NCBI RefSeq assembly: GCF_019216885.1
Contig: NZ_JAAQRC020000001.1
Span: 4,188,001 to 4,252,000, forward strand
Length of the DNA stretch: 64,000 bases
From: Methylobacterium sp. SyP6R
GTDB lineage: Bacteria > Pseudomonadota > Alphaproteobacteria > Rhizobiales > Beijerinckiaceae
Direction: 5' to 3'
How positions within the stretch are numbered: position 1 is the stretch's first letter; each line of letters starts with the position of its first letter. The notes below the pieces were generated by a model, which was not told where the DNA came from, searched no databases, and was given only the letters and a program-made list of their open reading frames with translations. Positions 55,802 through 63,826 of this stretch are shown piece by piece. Both the position numbers and the translations under genes were made by a program.

Positions 55802-56212
55802 GCGAGACCTCCGGCGCTACCGCGCAAAGCGCCACTTTTCTCTAAACCCGAAAATTTCGGCGGCGCGGCGATTATGCATGCCGAGAAGCATGGCCGACAA
55901 GAGAGGGGAGTGGGCAATTAGCGAAGCGGCAGCGTCGGACTACGGCCGGTCTGGACCGCCATCACGAGCCTACAACGATTGAGGAGTCTGTCCTGATGCG
56001 CCGCCCGACGCTTCCCATGCGCTTCCCAACTCGGTTTTCTGGGAAGCAAGCAACGGCTGATTTCCATCTAAACCATTGAAAAATAATGGTGCCGCAAGAG
56101 GGAGGCGACACCAAGCGCCATCCACAGCATTATGTTCTTTGAAATCATTGAGGAATTGCTGTCTGACAATGTGTCTGACAATGCTGCCCCACATCACTGT
56201 CGGAGAAACACG
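55802..56212. other. intergenic region upstream of the integrase with possible attachment signals
   Basis: No gene is seen. TGGTGCCGCAAGAGGGA (56087-56103) reads on the minus strand as TCCCTCTTGCGGCACCA, which looks like the 3' end of a tRNA with its CCA, the usual attachment site of tyrosine integrases; no complete tRNA is present. A perfect 12-base tandem repeat TGTCTGACAATG lies at 56160-56183, just before the integrase start. Confidence 0.5.
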
Positions 56213-57469
56213 ATGGCGGGGCGGCATGGGAAGTACCTCTACCGGCGGGCGGGGAGCCCGAACTGGTATCTCCGGTTGGTCAAGCCGTCGAGCATCCCAG
56301 CGGAGCAGGGATGGAGTCGCCGGCGGGAAGAGATCTCGCTCAAAACAGCCGACCGCGACGAGGCGCTGGCCATCGCCGCGCCACTGATCCGCACCCACAA
56401 GCTGATGCTGATTTCAGCCCGCTCGCGCCGAGTGGGCAAAATGACCCAGAAGTACGACTACGAGCCGAATCGTGAGCACCCGCAGAAGGACGGCTCGAAG
56501 ATCATCGCCACGCCTGCTCAGGCCATCCACGTGGATGCGTCCGGGAACGTGGTCGAGATCCGGCCGAATCGGTCGCGCGAGGTCGTCGAGTGGCAGGCGA
56601 CCGCCGCGGAGGCGAAGGAGCACGGGCTGAAGGTCAAGAAACTGAAGGGGCCCGACCCAGATATCCAGATCCTCGACGACTACCTCGGTCTGAAGGCCCG
56701 GAACAAGTACTACGACGCCGAGGCCCGTCGCACCTGGGCGGAGTTCAAGGAATTTGTTGGCGGAAAGCTGATCAAGGACTGCACCCGCAAGGAAGGCCGT
56801 GCTTTTGCCGAGCATTTGCGTGCCAAGGGTCTGAAGACCGCGACCATCGTGAAGCTGATCAACTACCTCGCCGCGCCGATCAACCACGCGAACGAGACCG
56901 GCGACCTGAAGGGGAATCCTTTCTTCCGAGTCATCGCGCACGAGGACGACGCCAAGGAGATGCTCGACTTCTCCGAGGACGACATGCGGCTGATGCGGGA
57001 TCACGTGCTGCCGAAGCTCGGTCGGGATGAGCGGTTGATGTGGCTCATGCTGGCCGCAACTGGAATGCGCCATTCCGAGGTGTACTCGATCCGGGAGGAG
57101 TTTGAGGAACAGGGCGTGCGACACGTCAAGGTCGGGAGCAAGACCGAGAGCAGCAAGCGTAAGGTACCGCTGCCGGATTGCCTGATTCCTTACCTGCCCA
57201 TGCGGATCACCGGGCCGTTGTTCGAGGACCCGAGCCTGAAGAATATCTCCAAGAATCTGCTGCGGGCGGTCCGGCGGGCCGGAATTACCGACCCGCGCAA
57301 GGTCGTCTACTCGACGCGCCACCGCGCCCACACCCGGCTGCGGAACGCGGGCTGCGACCGCGATGTCCAACGTGAGATCGTCGGGCACGAGACCGGCGAA
57401 GCCCACGTCAAGTACGGCCAGTTCCCAATTCTTGTGCTCCAACGGTGGATCAACGAAATCGGGTTCTGA
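56213..57469 (+). CDS. tyrosine-recombinase integrase
   Basis: A 418-residue integrase of the DUF6538/phage-integrase kind. The N-terminus AGRHGKYLYRRAGSPNWYLR and LKTADRDEALAIAAPLI is typical of island integrases. A core-binding domain follows (EFVGGKLIKDCTRKEGRAFA). The catalytic domain has Arg in LAATGMRHSEVYSIREE (about residue 285), Lys in GSKTESSKRKVPL, His-x-x-Arg region VYSTRHRAHTRLRNAGC (about 368), the late His in EIVGHETGEAHV and the nucleophile Tyr in VKYGQFP (about 403). All catalytic residues are present, so it looks active. ATG 56213 follows CGGAGAAACACG. Confidence 0.9.
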   Translation: MAGRHGKYLYRRAGSPNWYLRLVKPSSIPAEQGWSRRREEISLKTADRDEALAIAAPLIRTHKLMLISARSRRVGKMTQKYDYEPNREHPQKDGSKIIATPAQAIHVDASGNVVEIRPNRSREVVEWQATAAEAKEHGLKVKKLKGPDPDIQILDDYLGLKARNKYYDAEARRTWAEFKEFVGGKLIKDCTRKEGRAFAEHLRAKGLKTATIVKLINYLAAPINHANETGDLKGNPFFRVIAHEDDAKEMLDFSEDDMRLMRDHVLPKLGRDERLMWLMLAATGMRHSEVYSIREEFEEQGVRHVKVGSKTESSKRKVPLPDCLIPYLPMRITGPLFEDPSLKNISKNLLRAVRRAGITDPRKVVYSTRHRAHTRLRNAGCDRDVQREIVGHETGEAHVKYGQFPILVLQRWINEIGF

Positions 57470-59480: not shown

Positions 59481-60317
59481 TTATTTGGTCTCAGATTTCC
59501 GTCGCGATGGGCTGCGTCGGCGACGAGGAGCGCGATGTGGCATTCGAGGTCTTTCCGGCAATGCTTGATTGCGCACCCAGCAATGCCAAAAATCGGAAGC
59601 AAATTTGTTGAGAATTGATACAGATTTCTCAAGATGGTATAACTCATCCACTATTCTCATATTGTTATTCCGAAGTTTTTCGACAAACGCTTGTGCTCTG
59701 AAGTTTTCTCGATCAAGGTAAACATTAAAATGATCAATTGAATAATTTATTTTTATTGGACTGTGGATGGCATTGTTGCGAATGTCTTCTAATTTTTCAG
59801 CCTGATCCAATAGAAAAATAATGTGATCGAAAATGGCGTAAGAGCGTTCTGCTTGATCGTCAGTAAGCATATCGGGATGATGCGCTCGCACGATAAATTT
59901 TATTTTGGCAGCCTCTCTCAACATGTATCTTTGAGTGCGGTCGGAAGTAGTTACATTCCAAACTGCCACAGCCTCCTCATTATTGCCTTCAAATATCGTC
60001 CAGAAAAAAGTAGAAAACCATTGCTGAAGTTTGTTCCATTGAATATTGGCTTGACCAATTGCCTCAGCATACGGCCGAAGTGCAGATAAAATTTCCGTTT
60101 TGGTAGGTGGTTTTTCGGAGAAATTAGCTACCCTCTTTGATGGAGCCTCACGACGCTCGAAGCGATTGATGTTTATAATGTCCTCATACGATTGGATGTT
60201 TTCTTGAAGCAATTCGCTGCGCAGCTTGATTTTGTTGATCGGGCGTCGAGATTTGCGCAGCTTCGTCTCTGAACCTTGGCGATGGTCCTTTTTGGTTGCT
60301 TCATCACCGCCCGCCAT
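59481..60317 (-). CDS. AT-rich orphan protein of unknown function
   Basis: A 278-residue, mostly helical protein with clearly lower G+C than the core genome. N-terminus is basic (KKDHRQGSETKLRKSRRPIN); the middle reads ALRPYAEAIGQANIQWNKLQ, QWFSTFFWTIFEGNNEEAVA, REAAKIKFIVRAHHPDMLTD, then FLLDQAEKLEDIRNNAIHSP with a RNxxxH pattern that recalls the catalytic motif of HEPN nucleases. That motif (RNNAIH, about residue 187) makes a HEPN-like fold plausible. The last 25 residues are Arg/Pro-rich and of different composition, as if the 3' end were fused to host DNA. GGGGAAAC precedes ATG 60317. Confidence 0.62.
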   Translation of the reverse strand: MAGGDEATKKDHRQGSETKLRKSRRPINKIKLRSELLQENIQSYEDIININRFERREAPSKRVANFSEKPPTKTEILSALRPYAEAIGQANIQWNKLQQWFSTFFWTIFEGNNEEAVAVWNVTTSDRTQRYMLREAAKIKFIVRAHHPDMLTDDQAERSYAIFDHIIFLLDQAEKLEDIRNNAIHSPIKINYSIDHFNVYLDRENFRAQAFVEKLRNNNMRIVDELYHLEKSVSILNKFASDFWHCWVRNQALPERPRMPHRAPRRRRSPSRRKSETK

Positions 60318-60402
60318 GTTTCCCCAGCCGCAATCGTTAATGTGTACATAGAAGAGCAGTGTCACATTCTGAAAACAAGCCTTAATTGAAGGCTGACCTT
60401 AA

Positions 60403-60513
60403 ACTAGTGCACTGACACGGACAAACGTGCCATGCGCTCCTCAGCCAACTGCCTGCGATCATGAAGGAATTCGACGCGTGCTGTGTACCTTTTGAAGGCG
60501 TCAGTGCACTAGT
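60403..60513. repeat. 111-base element with perfect 14-base inverted ends
   Basis: ACTAGTGCACTGAC (60403-60416) and GTCAGTGCACTAGT (60500-60513) are exact inverted repeats around 83 bases without a gene. Each arm holds the palindrome AGTGCACT. It lies 94 bases beyond the stop of the serine recombinase gene, so it may be a recombination site or a miniature transposable element. No clear target duplication was found. Confidence 0.75.
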
Positions 60514-60607: not shown

Positions 60608-61234
60608 CTACGCTGGCACCTCACCTCGCAACCGGACCGCGATCTTCGCCACCGTGGCCCGGCTACACCCAGTTCCCGCTTGAATCTGTGTCCACGAGAT
60701 CCCTTTAGAGAGCATGGCCGCGATGATGGCGTTCCGTTTGGAATCTTCAGGGCGGCCCTTGTAGCGGCCCTCCGCCTTCGCCTTCGCCTGTCCCTGCTCC
60801 TGCCTTCGACGGCGGTCCTCGTAGTCCTTACGGGCCACAGCGGCGAGAACGTCGAGCATCATGCCGTTGACCGCCTCGAACACCCGAGCGGTGAAGTCAT
60901 CCGGGCCGGCAGTCGCCATCATGTGCGAGGTCGGTAGATCCAGGGCGACGATACGAATGCTACGTGCCGCGATCTCCACCTTCAGCTTCTCCCAGTCATC
61001 GGATGTGAGCCGGGAAAGGCGGTCCACCTGTTCGACGAGGAGCACGTCCCCGGCGCGGGCGTCCTTCAGCAGGCGGAATAGTTCGGGGCGGGCCAGCTTT
61101 GATCCGCTCTCGTTCTCGACGTACCAACTCGCGATGTGCAGGCGATGCTCGCTGGCGAACGCCTCAAGCGATGCCCTGGCGCGCAGGGCATCCTGCTCGG
61201 AGGTGGAAGCCCGAAGGTAGGCACGGACGAACAT
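60608..61234 (-). CDS. serine recombinase (resolvase/invertase family)
   Basis: A 208-residue recombinase. The catalytic domain starts at once: FVRAYLRASTSEQDALRARA with the nucleophile Ser about residue 10-12, ENESGSKLARPELFRLLKDA, DVLLVEQVDRLSRLTSDDWE with the conserved Arg of DRLSR, and the long E helix FEAVNGMMLDVLAAVARKDY. After GRYKGRPEDSKRNAIIAAML comes the C-terminal helix-turn-helix (SKGISWTQIQAGTGCSRATV). It is complete, so probably active, and should act at a site such as the inverted-repeat element downstream. Its relation to the recombinase remnant at 54424 is only at family level. Confidence 0.92.
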   Translation of the reverse strand: MFVRAYLRASTSEQDALRARASLEAFASEHRLHIASWYVENESGSKLARPELFRLLKDARAGDVLLVEQVDRLSRLTSDDWEKLKVEIAARSIRIVALDLPTSHMMATAGPDDFTARVFEAVNGMMLDVLAAVARKDYEDRRRRQEQGQAKAKAEGRYKGRPEDSKRNAIIAAMLSKGISWTQIQAGTGCSRATVAKIAVRLRGEVPA

Positions 61235-61539
61235 CAGAAGGCCCAGTGGTTCATTTGGGATGGTTCACATCATGCCGGTCTGTTTTAAATGGTCAAGATG
61301 GTTTTATAGACTGGCTTGGCTGATGGTGTAGGATGGGCATACCCAAACTGCGGATATGGAGCAGAGGTTCTAATTGGGACAAGCCAAAAATGTTTAGCAT
61401 TTCCTGCCGAACGGTGCTGTAGTGGTGTTATACCGCCTGGGCAACGCCGATAGAGTATCAAACGACTAAGAGTTTGGTGATCACATAAAGCAGGAAGATC
61501 TATCAGGTAAAAAACAAAATATTTGAATGGAGACAGTAA
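61235..61539. other. intergenic region upstream of the AT-rich cassette
   Basis: This 305-base gap separates the divergent recombinase and cassette genes and gets progressively AT-richer toward 61539. It should hold both promoters. A loose direct repeat GGTTCATTTGGGAT / GGTTCACATCAT is at 61247-61275. No gene is seen. Confidence 0.4.
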
Positions 61540-61905
61540 ATGAAAGTGCATCAGAAGGCGACAGGTATCAAGTCTGGTCGTGATGTTGTACAGAAATCGA
61601 ACATCGCGGCGAATCAAATTCTGCATGACGTAGATGCTGCCGGGAGCGTTGAGCAAATCATTGATATTGTGGATAAAAATAGAGATAAAATTACTGAGCA
61701 ATTGCAAATTGTCAAGGAATTTATCGAAAAACAAGCGCGTGAGGATACTATAGCGATAGAAAATGCGATAAGAGAAGCGCAATCTGGTAGTAAGAATAGT
61801 GTTACTAGTATTATAGGTAAACTTTCTCATAACATAGGCGAAATCGCCCAGAAAGTTGGCGCTACTGTCGTAGCGAAGTTAATCGAAAAGCAAATAGGAT
61901 TATAA
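61540..61905 (+). CDS. small helical protein of an AT-rich two-gene cassette
   Basis: A 121-residue protein of unknown family, about one third G+C in sampled stretches against roughly 70% in the core. The N-terminus HQKATGIKSGRDVVQKSNIA has a GxxSGRDVxQ pattern like that seen at the start of some defence- and signalling-associated adaptor proteins; this is a resemblance only. Residues 35-80 are a likely coiled coil (IIDIVDKNRDKITEQLQIVK, EFIEKQAREDTIAIENAIRE); the C-terminus GKLSHNIGEIAQKVGATVVA may be an amphipathic or membrane helix. GGAGACAGTAA precedes the ATG. The next gene starts 31 bases on, so they form an operon. Confidence 0.7.
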   Translation: MKVHQKATGIKSGRDVVQKSNIAANQILHDVDAAGSVEQIIDIVDKNRDKITEQLQIVKEFIEKQAREDTIAIENAIREAQSGSKNSVTSIIGKLSHNIGEIAQKVGATVVAKLIEKQIGL

Positions 61906-61936
61906 TGAGGTCGTCGCATATCGAAGGAGTCTGTTA

Positions 61937-63037
61937 ATGCAAAACAAAAATCGTTCTGAGGGTATTGCTGTTATCGACACATCTAGCCTGTACGCTGCCA
62001 GTCAGTATTTGCAAGAAATGGTTGGACTGGAAAGTTACATTGATAGTACGTACGACAGATGGGGCTCGGATCGTAGAAACATTAAGAAACGTATCGAATC
62101 TCGTTTAAACAGTTTCCTGATGGTGCTTCATAATTTACTTTTGTACAAGGAAATCAGAACGGATTTCGATGTATTGAGTATAGAAAGCGAGTTTTACCGA
62201 GATAATATTGAGTACTTGACTCGTTTGCTATCTGGGACTGTAGAGGTCCGGCCGATGCCTGTTACAATTACAGATGAGGAAATTGCGTTATCTATTATGC
62301 CTATTTTTAGGAAAAACATACGAATTTCTGAGTTCAATGAAACAGAAGAAACGTTTTACGAATCCTATCTCCAATCGCGATTATTCAGAACACAAAAGTC
62401 ATTAGAAAAGTTTGTCAATTTATTTTCGCTTAAAAACCGGGGGGAAGAGTCGCGGAGGCAACTAATGATTGCCGCGAGAACCTTAAGATATTCTGCTCAC
62501 AGCAAATTCATTCAGAGCACGGAAGGGATAGCATCGGCCTTCTGTGCTTCGCCATCAAGAATTGATGTATTAAAAGATTATCTTGATCCAAACAGTTTCA
62601 ATAGGTCAAAAAACGTCCATAACAAATCCGTCGATTTGTTTAGTAAGCTCGGATTGCCTGAAAGTGGATATGATTTTACTGGGTTCGTAACTAAGCCGCT
62701 CACATTGAGCGACCTTAGCAGGTACATTAAACATTTGCATCCACGTGCTGCACTTGAGCTTGTTTTGAAATTACGTGAAACCGATGAGGGGCAATTAATC
62801 CGTGAAACTTGGGCGGAGCGTCTGTGGTCAGCAGGTCCCCATGCTATCGAAGGTTTAAGCGCCCGCGAGCCTACAATCAATGCTTCAATGGAAAATATAA
62901 CGGCCCACCAAGGTGATATATATCAGATAATTGCTGTTACAAGTGGTGCAAAATTCGAAAATTCCCAACAGCCTACGTTGAACGTAGTCGAAGCCAAGAG
63001 TTACATCATAGATAAATTAAAAAATATGGGGCGGTGA
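61937..63037 (+). CDS. PIN-like N-terminus, unknown protein of an AT-rich two-gene cassette
   Basis: A 366-residue protein. It begins EGIAVIDTSSLYAASQYLQE; hydrophobic strand plus DTSS (Asp14) is how PIN-domain nucleases start, but the later acidic residues of the domain cannot be placed with confidence, so this is tentative. The rest is helical and charged: SRLNSFLMVLHNLLLYKEIR, YRDNIEYLTRLLSGTVEVRP, RTQKSLEKFVNLFSLKNRGE, TLSDLSRYIKHLHPRAALEL. No signal peptide or transmembrane segment is seen. AAGGAG lies seven bases before the ATG. It follows the coiled-coil gene in one operon and shares its foreign base composition. A nuclease effector with a small partner is the hypothesis. Confidence 0.7.
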   Translation: MQNKNRSEGIAVIDTSSLYAASQYLQEMVGLESYIDSTYDRWGSDRRNIKKRIESRLNSFLMVLHNLLLYKEIRTDFDVLSIESEFYRDNIEYLTRLLSGTVEVRPMPVTITDEEIALSIMPIFRKNIRISEFNETEETFYESYLQSRLFRTQKSLEKFVNLFSLKNRGEESRRQLMIAARTLRYSAHSKFIQSTEGIASAFCASPSRIDVLKDYLDPNSFNRSKNVHNKSVDLFSKLGLPESGYDFTGFVTKPLTLSDLSRYIKHLHPRAALELVLKLRETDEGQLIRETWAERLWSAGPHAIEGLSAREPTINASMENITAHQGDIYQIIAVTSGAKFENSQQPTLNVVEAKSYIIDKLKNMGR

Positions 63038-63826
63038 TGTTGATCAAAAAATAAATATAATAAATTTATCGTTTATTGCACCAATATATCCTGATTGTTC
63101 TGTTTAAAATGTATTCGCCTTACGCCGGAATTTGATTTGGTAATATTTGAAATATTTTGATGGTTCATTCCGCGTTCCTGACGAGAAAAGCGAGATATTG
63201 GATTAGAACTGTATTCCGTATCCTTGGCGGGCAGAGCGAGACATCAGGGTCAGAGGCGTATTTCGCTTCCGCGCCTAGAAATTTGCAACAATGGCGCGTC
63301 CGAAACTGGCCGATGGGGCCTCGGCCGGTGCGAATCACGGGCCGGTGTGCCTTCGCCTGGGCGATAACGCCGGTCTCCCTTGAGATGTGATGTGCGGGTC
63401 AGGGACAGTCAGGTGTGCTCCACGCTGCTCAAGCTCGTGCACGATGCATTGCGCAGACGTGCATACAGGAACAAATACAGCGACCCTTTCCCGACAGGGC
63501 TGGAGCCTGCGGGGCGGTCGCCGGAGCGAGCGCGTCGTCTGACTAGGGCCATCCTAATAGCCGCCATGGCCATGGGACCTCTGAATCAGCCATTCGCGAG
63601 TTCCTGAATCTAGCGGCGACGATGATCACGACTCGTCGAGCGCGATCATTGCCATGCGGTAGCCGTTCTGAAGAAGGCGAATCAGATTCGAGGACTCGCC
63701 GCCGGTGGCATGAGGAAAGGCGGAAGCTCATCCGGCTTTCCGCCGCCCTGCGAAGGCGGTGAATCAGCCGACTGCTGCCGGCGGATTTTGAACCTGTGAA
63801 CCGCGGCTTCCGAAGCTTCTCGGACC
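63038..63826. other. right edge of the island: non-coding, with a gene remnant
   Basis: No intact gene in 789 bases. G+C rises again from about 63180. On the minus strand 63727-63626 an open stretch reads HATGGESSNLIRLLQNGYRM then AMIALDES and a stop, which looks like the 3' end of a gene whose 5' part is lost. An imperfect hairpin, GGCGGAAGC/GGCTTTCCGCC, lies at 63719-63750. This may be the scar where the island meets the core genome. Confidence 0.4.

Follow-up and report, generated by a model that had tools for sequence, protein, structure and literature searches.

A rare two-gene cassette with a PIN-like first strand and a tail-like partner beside a serine recombinase in Methylobacterium sp. 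SyP6R

What is encoded by two adjacent genes of low G+C content that lie beside a serine recombinase in Methylobacterium sp. SyP6R? The window analyzed here is a stretch of 64,000 nucleotides from contig NZ_JAAQRC020000001.1, and the two genes, A and B, stand near its end (Table 1). Our tentative reading is that the pair forms a mobile conflict cassette of two genes; A would gather or control B, and B would attack a component of the cell, probably RNA. The analysis establishes the two genes and their spacing, the neighboring recombinase and how rare B is, together with, at moderate confidence, the resemblance of A to a tail carried by other proteins. Taken together, the nuclease-like start of B, its rarity, the recombinase neighbor and the tail-like partner suggest that the pair is probably an unstudied defense cassette.

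Table 1. Features of the A/B locus (positions counted from the first letter of the window)
Feature	Positions	Strand	Description
Gene A	61540-61905	+	121 aa; SGRDVVQ stretch N-terminal; tail ends IAQKVGATVVAKLIEKQIGL; resembles C-terminal tail module
Gene B	61937-63037	+	366 aa; unclassified; PIN-like first strand; member of a family of 13
PIN-like first strand of B	61961-61999	+	residues 9-21, GIAVIDTSSLYAA; invariant D14
C-terminal motif of B	62879-62938	+	residues 315-334, NASMENITAHQGDIYQIIAV; Q330 invariant in 13/13; resembles GRDVVQ of A, only suggestive
Small serine recombinase	60608-61234	-	PF00239, E 1e-20; divergent, 305 bases upstream of A
Probable res-like recombination site	61235-61364		130 bases 5' of the recombinase start; repeated GGTTC/GAACC

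Just as a first-pass annotation of this DNA had described, the two genes are separated by a gap of 31 bases, and each is preceded by a ribosome-binding site. Both are read from one strand, and the ribosome-binding sites (GGAG for A, AAGGAG for B) end 7 bases 5' of the respective ATG. That annotation put their G+C content at about one third, which was too low, as A measures 0.393 and B 0.409 in a window of 0.681. When the 2166-base stretch was simulated 2000 times with a first-order Markov model, no open reading frame (ORF) as long as B arose, and one of at least 121 aa, the length of A, arose in 275 runs. The length of A is therefore not beyond chance, and its standing as a gene rests on its ribosome-binding site and on weak homology. 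On the opposite strand, an ORF of 181 aa overlaps it. Scanning positions 61200-63400 gave two promoter-like sites where 5.3 were expected, neither of them 5' of either gene on the + strand, and no terminator. The common strand, short gap, matched G+C content and two good ribosome-binding sites argue against A and B being unrelated AT-rich cargo brought side by side by chance, an explanation that we consider unlikely and return to below.

B is a rare protein. It has no family match in Pfam, NCBIfam, PADLOC or PHROGs, and none of the PADLOC 2023 models reached it at E<=1. Database searches at the protein level, one of which scored only the 8000 candidates with the most words in common, recovered 12 relatives, all unnamed, which makes a family of 13 with B itself. 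When Pfam was run on the 13 aligned members, each family matched at most two of them, with a best E of 0.037, and sequence searches of the PDB gave nothing useful. The gene is single-copy in its own genome. Relatives were found neither in plasmids and phages, nor in viral contigs searched by protein, alignment and DNA pattern, nor in genome contigs searched by alignment and pattern, where the pattern did recover the window itself; none occurred among 98 other relatives or, in an overlapping set, 397 other phylum genomes. The earlier statement that neither product belongs to a known family thus holds for B across these four collections and has to be amended for A, which matches PHROG 28570, itself of unknown function.

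Whether B is a nuclease is less easily answered. Like the PIN-domain ribonucleases (PF01850; AF0591, VapC20, VapC11), B has a hydrophobic strand followed by DTSSL near its N-terminus, so that the PIN-like start seen by the first-pass annotation is borne out for the first strand. Structure prediction and a profile comparison, both suggested there, were run on B. With a low-confidence model, the structure comparison ranked AF1683 first (Z 5.2), which we take to be a PIN domain, and AF0591 second (Z 5.1), whose title names it a PIN domain; PIN entries rank high in this comparison, in which the Z of the top rows is weak. Several features set B apart from ordinary PIN domains. The comparison of B with 18 PF01850 hits in hhalign aligned only 10 columns at a probability of 0.3%, and 100 shuffled versions reached up to 1.5%, so that B does no better than shuffled sequence. 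PIN domains span about 130 aa and B 366 aa. PIN nucleases have an active site of three to four conserved acids. In all 13 family members D14, E72 and D76, which count in favor of a PIN-like effector, and E196 are invariant, and positions 14, 72, 76, 113, 196 and 305 are acidic, as judged by alignment. The same members also retain R74, R181, R184, H188, R208, R289 and R295 without exception, a further difference from PIN ribonucleases, and the presence of invariant R181, R184, H188 and R208 beside D14, E72 and D76 makes a standard catalytic site doubtful. The first-strand motif and the top rows of the low-Z comparison, set against the null profile-profile result, thus give weak support to a PIN-like B.

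These residues lend themselves to a different explanation, in which B is not a nuclease and its PIN-like core, lacking the standard site, acts as a sensor or scaffold, with R181, R184, H188 and R208 binding nucleotide or RNA. The seven invariant basic residues, the null profile comparison and the lack of any position between residues 197 and 304 that is acidic in all 13 members are what such a protein might display, but a mere scaffold need not retain four invariant acids and a fifth acidic position at 113. We regard this explanation as improbable, and continue with B as a putative effector.

A has no Pfam match above the cut-off and only partial matches to ZorA in PADLOC (E 0.001), and its match to PHROG 28570 (E 4e-7) covers residues 31-120. 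It also matches the last 107 residues of an unclassified 342-aa protein of its own genome (G000:C1:5920851-5921171; E 2.3e-4 in a genome search; 26% over 117 aa), and the gene for this protein (L004:796-1824) adjoins a recombinase 78% identical to that of the window. The same tail is C-terminal in a protein from a Hymenobacter plasmid (E 2e-4); the TIR-like character of that protein's N-terminus falls short of the Pfam cut-off (TIR_2, E 0.066). Two genomes of the genus supply further cases, a 308-aa protein and one with pentapeptide repeats, and Azospirillum has a weaker match (E 1e-3). One small module is thus found at the end of several differing proteins, and the membership of A itself is the weaker part. 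A model built from five tails without A gave A 9.9 bits over residues 21-121 and reversed A 1.1 bits, and six of 2000 shuffles of A reached 9.9 bits. On this score A is probably, with moderate confidence, a free-standing member of the tail module.

A protein search with A returned only a fragment identical to it, and no relatives of A were found in plasmids, phages or viral contigs. Models of the tail matched in three of 111 genomes of the genus, the source genome included, and in the source genome only among 297 genomes of the order and 398 of the phylum. The Hymenobacter tail as query found itself alone in plasmids and nothing in phages, and PHROG 28570 occurred in two of 299 phylum genomes, one of them the source genome. 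In the Azospirillum locus (L012:3561-5246) a DUF4145 gene is followed by an IS5-like element and then by an unannotated piece of the tail module, and we infer that gene and piece were once one gene. A recombinase-family gene lies upstream, and its sequence is not similar to that of the window recombinase.

A small gene placed ahead of a larger one with a PIN-like start, in a mobile setting, also recalls type II toxin-antitoxin operons such as VapBC, in which case A would act as the antitoxin, enclosing and blocking a PIN-like RNase toxin, B. We think this doubtful. PIN domains from related genomes are only about a third as long as B, which does not align to their profile and has no family matches; A, having no Pfam match above the cut-off, contains no recognized antitoxin domain and instead resembles the tail of other proteins. 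The first-pass annotation's working idea of toxin-antitoxin or anti-phage cargo is supported in part: conflict-type mobile cargo fits the recombinase, the low G+C content, the nearby conflict genes and the tail likeness of A.

A direct link between A and B may lie in their sequences, as the N-terminal GRDVVQ of A recalls the GGDVxQ conserved near the C-terminus of the B family. The pairing of GRDVVQ with GDIYQ is weak. Its score, the sum of two short pieces, was reached by eight of 5000 shuffles, and scores below zero were obtained for the other two tail proteins tested, so the likeness is only suggestive. It nonetheless adds a little to the case against chance neighbors. In favor of chance, the pairing of A with B is documented at this one locus, and the flanks of the same recombinase elsewhere in the genus are not regularly AT-rich. 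The idea that this recombinase regularly carries AT-rich cargo upstream was rejected, the upstream side being lower in G+C than the downstream side at only 19 of 31 loci (means 0.572 versus 0.595).

The serine recombinase that the first-pass annotation placed beside the pair is confirmed by its PF00239 match. Of 110 genomes examined from the genus, 33 have a match to it at E<=1e-70, the source genome among them. GGTTC/GAACC elements recur in 31 aligned recombinase loci, some of them near-identical and two from the source genome, and DNA similarity between the window and the locus of the 342-aa tail protein extends to about 61310. Judged from its sequence, the 130-base stretch is most likely the recombination site of the small recombinase. 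Close to copies of this recombinase in the genus we observed genes for TIR (L046:286-1320), leucine-rich-repeat (L030:1-1287) and EVE-HNH (L048:2135-2962) proteins. Ten ORFs from eight of 30 recombinase loci included three with TIR, leucine-rich-repeat or EVE-HNH matches above the cut-off; as these ten were picked by eye and form a biased sample, no rate is claimed.

If the favored reading is right, A and B would form a single operon carried as cargo by a mobile, recombinase-bearing region. B would be a very divergent PIN-like effector that probably acts on RNA, and A, as a free-standing version of the helical tail module that ends other proteins elsewhere, would probably assemble or tether B into an active or controlled complex. 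Upon infection or another stress, the cell would then stop growing or die. The scheme presumes an interaction of the two proteins, nuclease activity of B and phage as the trigger. A bolder version, in which B founds a new, strongly divergent PIN-like effector family with an unusual active site made of acids, the invariant Arg and His residues and an SPxR motif, with A as a free-standing form of a promiscuous tail module acting on B in trans and the whole forming a new immune cassette moved by the small serine recombinase, seems to us rather unlikely.

Parts of this arrangement have precedents. Effector-associated domains (EADs) are presented, in the sections of Kaur et al. 2020, 2021 that concern them (PMC7159879, PMC8195603), as small modules common to varied conflict proteins, with copies on both core and effector proteins. 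The module of A is likewise small, non-enzymatic and combined with varied proteins, a likeness of description and not of alignment; in contrast to what those sections describe, the tail-like module here is a separate protein and is absent from B. The second paper also proposes, in its account of the EAD10/TPR-GreA/B-C-PIN system, a previously undetected PIN version as a conflict nuclease (PMC8195603). There the PIN is C-terminal and accompanied by TPR and GreA/B-C, whereas the PIN-like strand of B is N-terminal and B has no Pfam match to TPR or GreA/B-C. As far as these sections go, modules common to varied conflict proteins are already known (PMC7159879, PMC8195603), as is the use of PIN nucleases by conflict systems (PMC8195603). 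The B family and a separate tail module would be new if borne out; neither turned up in general searches of the open-licence literature that were not directed at a name for either, which does not prove their absence from print. If true, the cassette would add an effector family absent from PADLOC 2023, Pfam, NCBIfam and PHROGs, and a small tail module linking TIR-like, pentapeptide-repeat and PIN-like proteins, through which more such systems could be sought.

The wider neighborhood has a similar character. From about 55 kb onward the G+C content of the window drops, and a tyrosine recombinase (PF00589) lies at 56132-57469. Beyond the window, a VapE-like gene starts about 6 kb from B, followed by genes for a DUF6602 protein (L007:12525-13325, about 10.5 kb from B; PADLOC PD_DExK E 1e-24, NucC E 2e-13), an ApeA-like protein (L007:13799-15433, about 12 kb; PF18862 E 8e-12) and an AIPR/AbiU protein (L007:18010-19743, about 16 kb; PADLOC AbiU E 6e-69). 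By these matches the DUF6602/NucC-like, ApeA-like and AIPR/AbiU genes mark a defense-rich stretch, with genes for a TetR protein and an amidase in between. On the other side of the pair, a gene on the reverse strand at 59481-60365 (43% G+C) encodes a 294-aa protein for which Pfam, PADLOC, NCBIfam and PHROGs gave no convincing match. HEPN RNases carry the motif R-x4-H, which RNNAIH in this protein resembles, and the gene may be another conflict gene close to the pair. The recombinase gene is closely followed, at 60403-60513, by an inverted repeat of 23 bases whose arms are 83% complementary and 65 bases apart, possibly an end of the element.
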